The position numbers and the translations under genes were made by a program. From positions 62,001-126,000 of the forward strand of contig JAIUNY010000002.1 in NCBI GenBank assembly GCA_020161505.1: DNA of 64,000 bases. Direction: 5' to 3'. The stretch is from Armatimonadota bacterium (GTDB lineage Bacteria; Armatimonadota; Fimbriimonadia; Fimbriimonadales; Fimbriimonadaceae). The notes under the pieces are model-generated. The model was not told the origin of the DNA. It ran no database searches and saw nothing but the letters and a program-made list of their open reading frames with translations. How positions within the stretch are numbered: position 1 is the stretch's first letter; every line of letters starts with the position of its first letter. Shown here piece by piece: positions 31,063 through 37,111 of this stretch.

Positions 31063-31439
31063 CAGTATTTCTCGTGGCCCGCGTGGGGGCAGTTCACTTG
31101 ACCGGTGGTCGGATCATAGACATAGGCTTCGCCGCCGACCGGGCACTTATAAAATGTTGCGCCGAGACGAGTCTCTTCAATCGACTGAGGAAACGTGTTC
31201 TCAACGGGATCCGTGGCGATGCCGATCCCCTGACGCACCTGACCCAGGTTGGATCGACACTGCGTATCTTTCGCCTTGTAGATGCTCTTCCCGATCATCG
31301 TCTCGCCTTTACCATCGGGACGCTCTTCCACCTTTCCGCCGAGTATCTTGCCTCCGGTCACAAAGAAGAGGGTCGCCAGAATCACAATCGCCATCGCGAC
31401 CATCAGGCCGATCAGAGTGTTCCCCCGGCGGAGGTTCAA
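31062..31439 (-). CDS. Pseudopilin-like small protein inside the accC operon
   Basis: 125 residues. MNLRRG followed by NTLIGLMVAMAIVILATLFF looks like a class III prepilin signal: a basic leader, Gly at the cleavage position and a long hydrophobic helix. The usual Glu5 is Gly. The mature part has paired Cys positions (DTQCRSNLGQ, FYKCPVGG, VNCPHAGH), which suggest disulfides or a metal site. The start is TTG, overlapping the stop of the BCCP-like gene (TTGA). Its position between a BCCP homologue and accC is unexpected. Confidence 0.65.
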   Translation of the reverse strand: MNLRRGNTLIGLMVAMAIVILATLFFVTGGKILGGKVEERPDGKGETMIGKSIYKAKDTQCRSNLGQVRQGIGIATDPVENTFPQSIEETRLGATFYKCPVGGEAYVYDPTTGQVNCPHAGHEKY

Positions 31440-31843
31440 GAGCTCACCTCAACCATCGCCACCGGCTGACCATATTCCACCGCCTGACCATCTTCCACGA
31501 GCACTTCCGTGATCTTGCCTGAGACCTTGCTCGCAATCTCATTGGCGATCCCCAGTGCCAAAATTTCGCCGATGACATCGCCACTTGCGAGGGTCTGACC
31601 AACGGCCAGTTCGCCTTTCAACTTCAGATATCCCACCACGGGGGCCGTTACTGGCTTCAAAACCGGGCCGGAGTCCACCACGGCGTTCTCCGCTTCGAAG
31701 GGGAGAGCCACTTCGTGCTCCGCGCCTTCGGAAAGGACGGCGGAAAACATCTCGCCCTCAGATTCCAGTTTCACCACGCGGTATCCGTGCTCGCGAGCAA
31801 CGCGCAGGCTGTCGCGAATCACATCGGTTGGGAGTCCTGCCAT
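31436..31843 (-). CDS. BCCP-like protein lacking the biotinylation lysine
   Basis: 135 residues, related to AccB. The N-terminal helix and strand (DVIRDSLRVAREHGYRVVKL) and the biotinyl-lipoyl barrel are recognisable: PVVGYLKLKGELAVGQTLASGD and SGKITEVLVEDGQAVEYGQP. At the hairpin where carriers read EAMKMMNEI this protein reads LALGIANEI, so Lys is replaced by Gly (codon GGG). It cannot accept biotin by the normal route. It heads the operon with accC. Plant BADC proteins, BCCP homologues without this Lys, inhibit acetyl-CoA carboxylase; a similar role here is inference. It could also be a structural carrier substitute. Confidence 0.85.
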   Translation of the reverse strand: MAGLPTDVIRDSLRVAREHGYRVVKLESEGEMFSAVLSEGAEHEVALPFEAENAVVDSGPVLKPVTAPVVGYLKLKGELAVGQTLASGDVIGEILALGIANEIASKVSGKITEVLVEDGQAVEYGQPVAMVEVSS

Positions 31844-32398: not shown

Positions 32399-33028
32399 AT
32401 GGCAGGGCAAACCTACGAATTCGATTTGATGCAGATGTCGGCAATCCGCGAGATGGCCAACATCGGACTGGGACACGCAACCACCGCTCTCGCAAACGTC
32501 ACGGGAAAATCCTTCAACATGGATATCCCCAACGTCGAGACGGTCTGCCTTGAAGAAGTCCCGATGATGATGGGGGATCCCTCCGACGTCTGCGTCGGGA
32601 TCTCAATGCCCATTGAAGGAGACGTCGAAGGCTACACCGCCTTCCTATTCCCGTGGAAGAGCGCGCAAGAGCTCTGGGGAATGCTCCTTGGATACAGCCC
32701 CGAAAGCCCCGAAGATGTGGATGACCTCCCAGCATCCGCGATGCTGGAAGTCGGAAACATCCTCTCCGCCAGCTTCATGAACGCCCTCAGCGACATGACC
32801 GGGCTCAAGATTCACGCGACACCCCCCATGGTCTCCATCGACCTGGCCTATACCATTGCCGCTTCCATCGTGGCGGAGGCCGAGCTCTCCGACGCGGTGG
32901 CCCTGGCAATCGAAACGCGACTGTTCGGCATGGAGAACCAGCAGACGACGGGATACTTCCTTTGTGTCCCCACTCTCGAAGGTTTGAACAAGTTGTTCGC
33001 GGCTCTGGGAATTCAGGGAGCTGCGTAG
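32399..33028 (+). CDS. cheC: CheY-P phosphatase CheC
   Basis: 209 residues, the same size as Bacillus CheC. Two copies of the phosphatase signature S-x3-E-x2-N are present: SAIREMANIGLGHATTALA near 14 and SAMLEVGNILSASFMNAL near 115. CheC dephosphorylates CheY-P and is stimulated by CheD. It opens an operon of seven tightly packed genes; the stop touches the ATG of cheD. Confidence 0.9.
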   Translation: MAGQTYEFDLMQMSAIREMANIGLGHATTALANVTGKSFNMDIPNVETVCLEEVPMMMGDPSDVCVGISMPIEGDVEGYTAFLFPWKSAQELWGMLLGYSPESPEDVDDLPASAMLEVGNILSASFMNALSDMTGLKIHATPPMVSIDLAYTIAASIVAEAELSDAVALAIETRLFGMENQQTTGYFLCVPTLEGLNKLFAALGIQGAA

Positions 33029-33553
33029 ATGGCCGCAGGGCAGGTTCTTGTCGGGATGGCCGAAATCAAGGTCATCAAAGGAACAGGGCAACTCACGTGT
33101 CTCGGCCTGGGCAGCTGCATTGGCCTTCTCGCCTACGATGCCGAATCCGGCGTCTGTGGGATGGCCCACATCATGCTCCCGGAAGCCTTTAAGGATAAAC
33201 CGGTCGACAAGCCGGGCAAGTTTGCCGACACCGGCGTTCCCGCCCTGCTCGCCGAAATCGAAAAGGCCGGAGGAAACATCCGACGACTGACCTGGGTCTT
33301 CACCGGCGGAGCACAAGTTTTTAAGTACGGAGCCGGCACGGCAAGCAAGCTCGATGTTGGAGCCCGCAACGGCGAAGCCGTGAACGCGCACCTTAAAAAG
33401 CTAGGCGCGCGGATTCTGGCTCAGGACATCGGAGGCACCAGTGGCCGCACGATGGTCGCCAATATCGAAACGGGAGAAGTGAGGGTTCGCACCGTCCAAG
33501 GGGGCGAAAAAACTCTTTGTCAACTCAAACGAGTGAGGGCGGAGGCAGCATGA
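33029..33553 (+). CDS. cheD: Chemoreceptor glutamine deamidase CheD
   Basis: 174 residues. Deamidates Gln in chemoreceptors and partners with CheC. Motifs: GLGSCIGLLAYD with the nucleophile Cys, GMAHIMLPEA with the catalytic His, and TGGAQVFKYG and ARNGEAVNAHL. It begins directly after cheC, and its stop overlaps the ATG of the HDOD gene (ATGA). Confidence 0.93.
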   Translation: MAAGQVLVGMAEIKVIKGTGQLTCLGLGSCIGLLAYDAESGVCGMAHIMLPEAFKDKPVDKPGKFADTGVPALLAEIEKAGGNIRRLTWVFTGGAQVFKYGAGTASKLDVGARNGEAVNAHLKKLGARILAQDIGGTSGRTMVANIETGEVRVRTVQGGEKTLCQLKRVRAEAA

Positions 33554-34413
33554 GCCATACCATCACGATTGAAGAGATCGTCAGCAAGACGACCGACCTG
33601 CCCACGATCCCCGCAGCCGCGATCAAGGTCATGCGCGAAACGCAGAACCCGGACTCATCGGCCGCCACGATCGCACGGATTCTTGTCACCGATCAAGCCC
33701 TGAGCGCGCGCGTTCTTCGCCTCGCCAACAGTGCCTACTACGGACTCGTCCGTAAGGTCACAGATCTCCAAGATGCCGTGGTCATCCTGGGCATGAAATC
33801 GGTGAAGAATCTCGCGCTGGTCGCCAGCACCTACCCGTGGATGCAGCGACCCATCACCGGCTACTGCCTCGGCCCAGAACAGATGTGGCAGCACGCTTTC
33901 GGTGCCGCCGTTGGTGCCCAACTCGTGGCCAGGATCAGCAAGAAGGCACCGGAAGACGTCGCCTTCACCGCAGGTCTGCTCCACGACATCGGCAAGGTTG
34001 CCCTGAGCGTCTGGCTCGAGAACAAAGTCGGAGCGATCCTCCTCTACGCCGGTCGAGAAGGCCTGAGCTTTGATGAAGCCGAGCGACGGATCCTCGGCTA
34101 CGACCACTGCCAAGTCGGATTCCACCTCGCCACCGAGTGGAACCTTCCCGAAGAAGTGGCTCACGCGGCCCTGTGGCACCACGACCCGGACAAGGCAAAA
34201 GAGGATCAATTCATCGTCGATTGCGTTCACGTCGGCGACTACATCTGCTCCAGCATGGGGTTTGGTCTCGGCGGAGATGGTCTTCTTTACAAATTCTCTG
34301 AAAACAGCCTGGAGCGGCTCGGCTTAAAGCCCGAAGATTTAGACCAGATCACGGACGAGTTCGTGATCCGGTACGAAGAGTACGAATCCCTGTTTCAGGA
34401 GCTTGCAGCATGA
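33550..34413 (+). CDS. HDOD-domain protein
   Basis: 287 residues. Begins with an HDOD core: LPTIPAAAIKVMRE, QALSARVLRLANSAYYG, DAVVILGMKSVKNLAL, and AGLLHDIGKVALSVW, in which the HD pair is retained. HDOD proteins act in signalling by cyclic nucleotides and in chemotaxis or motility regulation; they usually do not keep phosphodiesterase activity. It sits between cheD and cheB with 4-bp overlaps on both sides, so it is part of the chemotaxis output or adaptation module. Confidence 0.88.
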   Translation: MSHTITIEEIVSKTTDLPTIPAAAIKVMRETQNPDSSAATIARILVTDQALSARVLRLANSAYYGLVRKVTDLQDAVVILGMKSVKNLALVASTYPWMQRPITGYCLGPEQMWQHAFGAAVGAQLVARISKKAPEDVAFTAGLLHDIGKVALSVWLENKVGAILLYAGREGLSFDEAERRILGYDHCQVGFHLATEWNLPEEVAHAALWHHDPDKAKEDQFIVDCVHVGDYICSSMGFGLGGDGLLYKFSENSLERLGLKPEDLDQITDEFVIRYEEYESLFQELAA

Positions 34414-35447
34414 AAAAACAACGTGTGATGGTCGTCGATGACAGCGCCTTTATCCGGCGCATGCTCACCGACTGGATTCAGGGAACAAGCGATCTTGAAC
34501 TTGTTGGGGTGGCAAAGAACGGTGAGGAGGCCGAGGGCATGGCCCGCGATCTCAAGCCCGATGTCGTCACGCTCGATGTTGAAATGCCCGTGAAATCGGG
34601 CCTCGAAGCTCTGCCGGAGATCCTAAAAACTGGAGCCAAGGTGCTGATGGTCAGCAGTGTGACCAAACAGGGGGCGACCGCCACTCTTCAGGCTTTGGAG
34701 GCCGGGGCTTACGACTTCGTAACCAAACCAAGCAGCAGCTCCAGCCTCGCCTTCACCGGCTCCAAGGACGAAACGCTCGACAAAATCCGTGCCTCTCGGT
34801 ACGCACGTCACCGAGCGGTTCCCGCGAGCGGAAGTGCAATCAAGGTGTCTGCACCCACGCAGGTCGTGGATCGACTGGTGGTCATCGCCAGTTCCACCGG
34901 AGGCCCATCCACCCTCCGCACCCTGTGGGAGCAACTACCGAAGAACTTCCCCGCTCCGATTTTGGTCGTGCAGCACATGCCGGAAGGCTTCACCGCATCC
35001 CTTGCCAAGCGTCTCGACATGGCCGGAACCGTGCCCTGCCGCGAAGCAAAAGCGGGCGATAAGGTCGTCGCGGGGCAAGCTCTGCTCTGCCCGGGAGGCG
35101 TTCACATGATCGTCAAGCCCGACATGACGATCGCCTTCACCGACGAACCGAAGGTCCACGGCGTCAAACCCGCGGCTGACTACCTGTTCCATTCCGCCGC
35201 TCAGGTGAAAGGGAACAAAACCGTGGGTGTCGTCCTCACCGGGATGGGGCGCGACGGAGCCGACGGCGCAGTTGCCATCCGCAAAGTCGGCGGACGAGTT
35301 CTCGGCGAAAACGAGGAGAGCTGCGTGATCTACGGCATGCCCAAAGCCGCCAAAGATGCAGGCGGAATCGACGCAGAATTCCCGCTCGAAGAGATCGCTG
35401 GAGCAATCATCGCCAGTCTGGCGAAGAAGGTGCGCGATGCTGCCTAA
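34410..35447 (+). CDS. cheB: Chemotaxis methylesterase/glutaminase CheB
   Basis: 345 residues. Receiver domain with phospho-acceptor Asp56 (TLDVEMPVKSG), a linker of about 30 residues, and the methylesterase domain with Ser162 (IASSTGGPS), His189 (VVQHMPEGFT) and Asp282 (GMGRDGADG). Removes methyl groups from chemoreceptors when phosphorylated by CheA. No CheA is encoded in this operon. Confidence 0.95.
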   Translation: MKKQRVMVVDDSAFIRRMLTDWIQGTSDLELVGVAKNGEEAEGMARDLKPDVVTLDVEMPVKSGLEALPEILKTGAKVLMVSSVTKQGATATLQALEAGAYDFVTKPSSSSSLAFTGSKDETLDKIRASRYARHRAVPASGSAIKVSAPTQVVDRLVVIASSTGGPSTLRTLWEQLPKNFPAPILVVQHMPEGFTASLAKRLDMAGTVPCREAKAGDKVVAGQALLCPGGVHMIVKPDMTIAFTDEPKVHGVKPAADYLFHSAAQVKGNKTVGVVLTGMGRDGADGAVAIRKVGGRVLGENEESCVIYGMPKAAKDAGGIDAEFPLEEIAGAIIASLAKKVRDAA

Positions 35448-36246
35448 GCCAAGCGATTGGGTAACGTTCTACGCCAACGTCAAGCGCAAGGTCAATCTCG
35501 ACCTCGATCTCTACAAGGCCAACCAGCTTCAACGCCGCATCGTCTCAATGGCGGAGCAGAAGGACTGCAAGAGCCTGGATCAGTTTTGGACGTGGATCAG
35601 CCTGAGCCCGGCGAACATGGAATGGTTCCTCGATCGCCTAGCGATCAACGTCAGCGAGCTGTTCCGGAATCCGGAAAAGTGGCGAGAAATGGAGGCGAAG
35701 ATCCTCCCGGAGCTTCTTAAGAAGAGTTCACGGCTCAAGATCTGGAGCGCAGGATGCAGCTATGGAGCGGAAGCTCACACGCTCGCCGCGATCCTCGATC
35801 ACAAGTTCTCCGGAAGCCACAAGATTATCGGCACCGATATCGACACGGCAGCCCTGAACCAGGCGAAAGCCGGAACCTTCGGCCCAACGGACTTCAAAGC
35901 CGTGCCGAAGGAGTACGCCCAATACTTCCACGCCAAAGGATCGGACTACACCGCTGATCCTCGGCTCAAGAAGTACCTGGAGTTCCGCAAAGGCAACCTT
36001 CTCGCCGATCGATTCGACACGGGGTTTGACCTCATCATGTGCCGGAACGTGGTGATCTATTTCACCGAAGAGGCCAAAGCCGACCTCTACAAAAAGTTTT
36101 TCCAAGCCCTGAAGCCGGGAGGCATTCTCTTTGTGGGAAGCACCGAGCGGATCTTCAAGGCCGACGAAATTGGATATCAAACGGTCCTGCCGTTCTACTA
36201 CAAAAAACCCTTGCTGGGGGAAAAATCATGGCGAAACGCATCCTGA
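35437..36246 (+). CDS. cheR: Chemotaxis protein methyltransferase CheR
   Basis: 269 residues. Methylates glutamates of chemoreceptors from SAM. N-terminal helical domain, then the SAM fold with WSAGCSYGAEAHTLAA, IIGTDIDTAALNQA and CRNVVIYF. The ATG at 35437 is inside the end of cheB (11-bp overlap). A longer in-frame start at 35356 would only extend into cheB. Confidence 0.94.
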   Translation: MLPKPSDWVTFYANVKRKVNLDLDLYKANQLQRRIVSMAEQKDCKSLDQFWTWISLSPANMEWFLDRLAINVSELFRNPEKWREMEAKILPELLKKSSRLKIWSAGCSYGAEAHTLAAILDHKFSGSHKIIGTDIDTAALNQAKAGTFGPTDFKAVPKEYAQYFHAKGSDYTADPRLKKYLEFRKGNLLADRFDTGFDLIMCRNVVIYFTEEAKADLYKKFFQALKPGGILFVGSTERIFKADEIGYQTVLPFYYKKPLLGEKSWRNAS

Positions 36247-36593
36247 TCACAGATGACGCGCTCTTCATGCGCGTGACACTTAAGAACATCCTGACTCAGA
36301 ACGGGTACGAGGTTGTCGGTGAGGCTCAAAACGGAGCCGAAGCCGTCAAGCTCTACTCGGAACTGAAGCCCGACCTCGTGACAATGGACATCACGATGCC
36401 TGAGATGGACGGGATTGAAGCCCTCAAAGCCATCAAAGCAAGCGATTCCGGAGCCACCGTTATCATGTGCACCGCTATGGGGCAGAAGAACATGGTGGTC
36501 GAAGCGATCCAAGCTGGCGCGAAGGACTTTATCGTCAAACCGTTCCAGCCCGACCGTGTCCTGGAAGCTGTTGGAAAGCTCCTGGCGGCGTAA
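36228..36593 (+). CDS. cheY: Response regulator CheY
   Basis: 121 residues, a single receiver domain with Asp9/Asp10, phospho-acceptor Asp54 (VTMDITMPEMDG), Thr82 and Lys104 (FIVKPF). It overlaps cheR by 19 bp, and GGGGG lies 6 nt before the ATG. Output is presumably a flagellar motor or pilus; neither is encoded nearby. Flanked by CheC and CheX phosphatases in the same operon. Confidence 0.93.
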   Translation: MAKRILITDDALFMRVTLKNILTQNGYEVVGEAQNGAEAVKLYSELKPDLVTMDITMPEMDGIEALKAIKASDSGATVIMCTAMGQKNMVVEAIQAGAKDFIVKPFQPDRVLEAVGKLLAA

Positions 36594-36622
36594 GGCGAAG
36601 GTGAGAATGATGGAGGCACGCC

Positions 36623-37111
36623 ATGAAAGTTGAATATGTAACGCCTTTCGTGGCCGGTTCGGTGAGCGTCATCCAGACCCTCATCAACTCGACGCCGGAG
36701 AGAGGGAAGCTCTCGGCTCGCCCGCAAATGTTCACCTCGCAACAGGTCAACATCGTCTGCGGGATCACCGGCGACATCGAAGGTCAGGTCATCTACGGGA
36801 TGTCCTTGCTGACCGCCAATCGGATGGCCAGCAAGATGCTCGGTGGACAACCGGTTCCGCAGTTTGATCAACTCGCCGCCTCGGCGATCGCCGAACTCGG
36901 CAACATGATCAGCGGAAACTCGGTCACTCTGCTCGCGCAGCAGAGCTACACCTGCGACATTACGCCCCCCACCATTGTGAAGGGGAGCAACGTCAAAATC
37001 TCGACGCTGGATATTCCCGCGCTCGTCATCCCCCTCGTCGTCGCCGACGTCGGAGAAATTGAAATCAACGTCAGCCTGCAGCAACGCAAGGCCAAAGCTG
37101 AGGCCGCCTAA
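36623..37111 (+). CDS. cheX: CheX-like CheY-P phosphatase
   Basis: 162 residues. N-terminal KVEYVTPFVAGSVSVIQTL and one phosphatase motif ASAIAELGNMISGNSVTLLA near 90, the layout of CheX. It completes an operon with two predicted CheY-P phosphatases. A GAGAATGATGGAGGCACGCC stretch just upstream supplies GGAGG as ribosome-binding site. A strong terminator follows. Confidence 0.88.
   Translation: MKVEYVTPFVAGSVSVIQTLINSTPERGKLSARPQMFTSQQVNIVCGITGDIEGQVIYGMSLLTANRMASKMLGGQPVPQFDQLAASAIAELGNMISGNSVTLLAQQSYTCDITPPTIVKGSNVKISTLDIPALVIPLVVADVGEIEINVSLQQRKAKAEAA

Follow-up and report, generated by a model that had tools for sequence, protein, structure and literature searches.

What does a homologue of the biotin carboxyl carrier protein (BCCP, AccB) do for the cell when the lysine that should carry biotin is missing, and its gene heads the operon for biotin carboxylase? 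The question is raised by a gene, here called accB1, in a member of the Fimbriimonadaceae (phylum Armatimonadota). The window, the whole stretch of DNA analyzed, is 64,000 nucleotides long, and the features under study are listed in Table 1.

A BCCP homologue without the biotinyl lysine heads the accC operon

The operon runs from accB1 through a pseudopilin-like gene and accC to nusB, and adjacent genes overlap by 1 to 8 bases. The first-pass annotation was right to place accB1 at the head of the accC operon, but it omitted the gene for the 125-aa pseudopilin-like protein that precedes accC. The pseudopilin-like protein has an N-methylation-type start and a C-terminal CP...YxYDPxTGxVxCPHPGH motif; in some members of the family its N-terminal segment instead resembles a lipoprotein signal. 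Upstream of the operon, on the plus strand, is a chemotaxis-type cluster (32399-37111) whose translations read as CheC/CheX, CheD, HDOD, CheB, CheR, and CheY-like proteins.

Table 1. Features of the accB1 operon (positions in the window)
Feature	Position	Strand	Description and basis
accB1 (AccB1)	31843-31436	minus	135-aa BCCP homologue without biotinyl lysine; ATG start; heads the operon
GGG codon, Gly98 at the biotinyl-lysine position	31552-31550	minus	ALGI instead of AMKM; sequence and alignments
N-terminal AccB module, residues 6-39 (helix 6-18, hairpin 23-36)	31727..31828	minus	Predicted structure and alignments
C-terminal biotinyl-type beta-barrel, residues 62-133	31445..31660	minus	Thumb shortened; predicted structure, Foldseek, alignments
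Pseudopilin-like membrane protein, 125 aa	31439-31062	minus	Between accB1 and accC; in 104/132 sampled loci
accC	31062-29701	minus	Biotin carboxylase subunit of acetyl-CoA carboxylase
nusB	29708-29058	minus	End gene of the conserved cluster

The C-terminal half of AccB1 matches the Pfam Biotin_lipoyl model at 34.6 bits (cut-off, 22.1), and the protein scores 45 bits against the NCBIfam BCCP model TIGR00531, which is below the equivalog cut-off of 115 bits. The top solved structure for a profile of the AccB1 family is Escherichia coli BCCP (4hr7; 4e-15). The first-pass annotation described an AccB homologue that aligns along its length and reads A-L-G-I, with GGG at the lysine position. The sequence bears out this motif (in full, E-I-L-A-L-G-I-A-N-E-I), and the description of the alignment is fair, since the N-terminal module aligns with AccB as well.

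An AlphaFold2 model built from 14 sequences (mean pLDDT, 78.9; pTM, 0.50) places a disordered, low-confidence linker (residues 40 to 57) between the N-terminal helix and hairpin and the barrel, which is confidently predicted (block pLDDT of about 90 to 93 over residues 61 to 130). Foldseek matches the model to E. coli BCCP (1bdo and 4hr7) and to Arabidopsis BCCP1 (9a87) with a TMt of about 0.8. The predicted fold of AccB1 is thus an intact biotinyl domain joined to an AccB N-terminal module, as in a functional carrier. What AccB1 lacks of such a carrier is the biotinyl lysine of the (E)AMKM motif and the full thumb, which is a segment of 17 residues versus 23 in all 97 proteins sampled of the second AccB (AccB2, see below). 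In the model, Gly98 caps the hairpin that strands 90 to 96 and 99 to 104 form, at the tip where a lipoyl domain or other acyl carrier would have its attachment lysine, and use of AccB1 as a lipoyl carrier is therefore ruled out. In biotinyl domains the lysine is located in a tight beta turn, and Gly, Asn, and Asp are frequent in such turns, which would account for their occurrence in AccB1 once the lysine had become dispensable.

The genome encodes an intact carrier and a complete carboxylase

The genome that contains the window (3.14 Mb, 99.9% complete) has ten Biotin_lipoyl matches. One of these is AccB2 (contig C30), which has an intact EAMKVFNE motif, and two others are small carriers that belong to other acyl-CoA carboxylases. 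There are two biotin carboxylases, one encoded by the accC of the window and the other on contig C29, and four carboxyltransferase matches, including two smaller ones near each other on contig C25 that we take as accD and accA. BirA is encoded on contig C19. Since accB2, accC, and carboxyltransferase genes are all present, the genome has a complete heteromeric acetyl-CoA carboxylase that does not need AccB1 for its carrier. AccB2 answers the call of the first-pass annotation for a search for a second accB with an intact motif, and it rules out the case of a genome that lacks another carrier. AccB1 is thus a BCCP homologue that lacks the biotinylation motif and coexists with an intact BCCP, as plant BADC proteins do.

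The glycine is conserved in the family and the gene is under purifying selection

AccB1 matches were detected in 83 of 85 genomes of the same family, nearly all of them full length. All 30 orthologues first aligned have Gly at the lysine position, as do all 39 tabulated AccB1 proteins of the Fimbriimonadaceae, so that none of these proteins has Lys there; the first-pass annotation had asked whether relatives share the residue, and they do. The order of pseudopilin-like gene and accC is retained in the family loci that we looked at.

For four close pairs with finite values, the dN/dS of AccB1 is 0.04, 0.07, 0.13, and 0.14, compared with 0.015 to 0.03 for AccC. AccB1 is therefore clearly under purifying selection, although this selection is weaker than that on AccC. 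The absence of the lysine and the faster evolution of AccB1 relative to AccC are what would be expected of a pseudogene in decay or of an isolated mutation, but the invariant glycine of the family, the dN/dS values, and reading frames that are intact in nearly all genomes listed rule this out for practical purposes, and we give it a negligible probability.

In two reduced genomes of the same family (G060 and G061, 1.5 Mb; loci L292 and L293) we detected no match to AccB1 or AccB2 and no accC of the window type. The biotin carboxylase that remains in them is closer to the second biotin carboxylase of the window's genome, which is of the acyl-CoA type (54% identity), than to accC (46 to 49%). 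The joint absence of AccB1, AccB2, and the window-type accC indicates that the subunits were apparently lost together, and it suggests that these two genomes have lost the whole heteromeric acetyl-CoA carboxylase.

AccB1 is kept across the phylum while its lysine has repeatedly been replaced

The AccB1 profile matches 284 of the 291 Armatimonadota genomes, most of them twice. About 200 further loci were retrieved, and the two paralogues were collected from genomes across more than 40 families, which gave 132 AccB1 and 97 AccB2 proteins, all within Armatimonadota; ten AccB1 proteins without an accC or pilin context were assigned by hand from their sequence. The residue at the lysine position of AccB1 (n = 132) is G in 63, K in 32, R in 23, T, H, D, and S in 3 each, and N in 2, whereas AccB2, which is encoded at an unlinked locus, keeps its Lys in all of the 97 genomes sampled. 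AccB1 lies upstream of accC in at least 116 of the 132 sampled loci, a lower bound because some loci stop before the position of accC. The thumb segment is 23 residues long in every one of the 97 AccB2 proteins and shorter than 21 residues in 100 of the 132 AccB1 proteins, including 24 that have Lys. In family f25, AccB1 is present with Gly (ETLGIREEI) beside another AccB.

Several families have an AccB1 with Lys (e.g., ESMKLMNE; loci L085-L087, L090, L092, L093, and others), mostly with a short thumb. Genomes of this kind may, judging from the motif, have two biotinylated carriers. In 78 of the 97 genomes sampled for accB2, the gene that follows it is that for homoserine dehydrogenase (e.g., L001:219-2061), a conserved pairing of genes for fatty acid and amino acid synthesis.

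A profile scan of genome contigs with a narrower alignment returned 14 loci, the titles of which name Fimbriimonadaceae, Fimbriimonadia, Armatimonadetes/Armatimonadota, or Chthonomonas. Matches of the accB type in other phyla were returned by a tblastn search of plasmids.

Mapped onto a tree of 116 AccC proteins, the residue at the lysine position of AccB1 requires at least 23 changes, and at least 13 changes between Lys and non-Lys, the latter count being from a quickly built tree in which many branches are weak; because parsimony was applied to an unrooted tree, gain and loss are not separable in these numbers. Recurrent loss is the natural reading, since Lys is the ancestral state of AccB. 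On a tree of AccB proteins, AccB1 and AccB2 are split by one branch (1 change versus 66 for shuffled labels), and Lys and non-Lys forms are intermixed within AccB1. This tree favors a single duplication behind the two paralogues, short of proof because the support of the branch is low (40). From these surveys we conclude that AccB1 is an old paralogue, kept across the phylum beside accC, in which the lysine has been replaced again and again.

AccB1 as a proposed structural subunit of acetyl-CoA carboxylase

We propose that AccB1 is a non-catalytic, non-biotinylated BCCP paralogue of the heteromeric acetyl-CoA carboxylase of Armatimonadota that has a structural role, a reading to which we assign a probability of about 0.6. 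By analogy, this role is most likely to build or stabilize the sub-complex of biotin carboxylase and BCCP, as has been proposed for plant BADC. AccB1 would be produced together with AccC, would bind it through its AccB-type N-terminal module and barrel, and would assemble or stabilize the sub-complex of biotin carboxylase and AccB2, while only AccB2 would shuttle with biotin from AccC to the carboxyltransferase and back. A lysine that a structural AccB1 no longer needed would then be able to drift, and the position could come to hold a residue, such as Gly, that is compatible with a hairpin turn.

Several observations lead us to prefer an assembly role. accB1 is translationally coupled to accC through the overlapping genes of the operon, a linkage that also lends indirect support to a putative BADC-like binding of AccB1 to biotin carboxylase and BCCP. 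Lys-bearing and Lys-less forms of AccB1 occupy the same locus, which indicates that the function that preserves the gene is independent of biotin. AccB1, AccB2, and the window-type accC are absent together from the two reduced genomes. In addition, the plant case is itself shifting from "inhibitor" toward "glue," according to recent work (PMC11926652), and the argument for assembly is drawn largely from this plant parallel. Two observations count against a structural reading: in f3 genomes AccB1 is located away from accC in 5 of the 6 sampled, and the rate at which AccB1 evolves, higher than that of AccC, is not that of a rigidly conserved structural component.

The first-pass annotation had put forward a BADC-like brake on the carboxylase, with a structural subunit as the main alternative. 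The resemblance to BADC stands, because neither a lone change in this genome (Gly in 39 of 39 family proteins) nor the lack of another carrier (intact EAMK accB in 97 of 97) was found. However, the structural alternative fits better than a pure inhibitor, given the coupling to accC, the co-conservation with the whole enzyme, and the Lys-bearing orthologues. As a negative regulator, AccB1 would compete with AccB2 for AccC and lower carboxylase activity, as was first proposed for BADC. AccB1 and BADC share the same defect and the same parent family, AccB1 would be expected to compete for the surface of AccC that AccB2 uses, and an inhibitor model is described for plants (PMC7712654 and PMC11926652). 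We nevertheless consider this unlikely. Coupling to accC would hold AccB1 at a fixed ratio to its target, which is a poor design for a switch; families with a Lys-bearing AccB1 retain the gene at the same place; and the inhibitor model is contested even for plants (PMC11926652).

Two further explanations look to the surroundings of the gene. AccB1 and its pseudopilin-like neighbor might together place AccC at the membrane, which would be in keeping with the presence of the pseudopilin-like gene between accB1 and accC in 104 of the 132 loci. C-terminal domains of the pilin type face out of the cytoplasm, however, which counts against such docking. Although small proteins do dock the plant carboxylase on a membrane (PMC7712654), several Armatimonadota families have accB1 and accC with no pilin-like match between them, and we regard membrane docking as very improbable. 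Slightly less credible still is a role outside acetyl-CoA carboxylase (e.g., in regulation or as a partner of another biotin carboxylase), in which the linkage to accC would be historical. The five f3 genomes in which AccB1 is apart from accC and yet keeps its Gly are what such a role would predict, but linkage to accC in 116 of the 132 loci and the apparent loss of AccB1 along with further subunits of acetyl-CoA carboxylase from the two reduced genomes speak against it.

Comparison with known systems and significance

In the plant literature, BADC is described as 25 to 30% identical to BCCP, without a biotinylation motif, and unique to the plant enzyme (PMC11926652); its competition with BCCP for biotin carboxylase (PMC7712654) is described alongside a role in assembly, and the inhibitor model is disputed in favor of an assembly "glue" (PMC11926652). 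AccB1 is like BADC in belonging to the same kind of multi-subunit carboxylase, in being a motif-less homologue of a coexisting intact BCCP, and in being a proposed non-catalytic subunit. In contrast to BADC, which is encoded by plant nuclear genes, AccB1 is a product of the accC operon of bacteria and has Lys-bearing orthologues in the same clade. The presence of these orthologues within the bacterial clade, on a tree built without plant sequences, makes a common Lys-less ancestor with BADC unlikely. AccB1 would work like BADC at most by analogy, and the pattern suggests that bacteria evolved a BADC-like non-catalytic subunit independently of plants.

AccB1 also shares with E. coli AccB (4hr7/1bdo) an N-terminal module, a linker, a biotinyl barrel, and a gene encoded with accC, but it differs in having Gly for Lys, a shortened thumb, and a second, intact AccB in the genome. 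The epsilon subunit (AccE/PccE) of actinobacterial acyl-CoA carboxylases is small and non-catalytic and aids assembly of the holoenzyme (PMC7835884). Help in assembly, which is described for AccE, is what we propose for AccB1; AccE/PccE, however, touch the carboxyltransferase of another carboxylase type and are by description a separate structural component rather than a BCCP homologue. In BC1 of Chloroflexus aurantiacus, a fused BC-BCCP protein, a hairpin of the BCCP that is away from the biotin site tetramerizes biotin carboxylase (PMC11077971). BC1 shows that oligomerization of biotin carboxylase can be driven by a part of BCCP other than the biotin site, although BC1 is biotinylated and fused to the carboxylase. 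We found no paper on AccB1 of Armatimonadota in the open-access literature.

Acetyl-CoA carboxylase catalyzes the committed step of fatty acid synthesis and is a target for drugs and for engineering. Non-biotinylated BCCP has been described as plant-only, and whether it serves assembly or inhibition is argued there (PMC11926652). The many independent losses of Lys, together with Lys-bearing orthologues in one phylum, are a natural experiment on this very question, and the AccB1 proteins are small and should be expressible in E. coli. With somewhat better than even confidence, we suggest that Armatimonadota equip their acetyl-CoA carboxylase with a BCCP subunit that is dedicated to a non-catalytic role and co-produced with biotin carboxylase, an independent counterpart of BADC from which biotin has been lost about a dozen times, and that assembly or tuning of the enzyme by a biotin-less carrier may be a recurrent solution.
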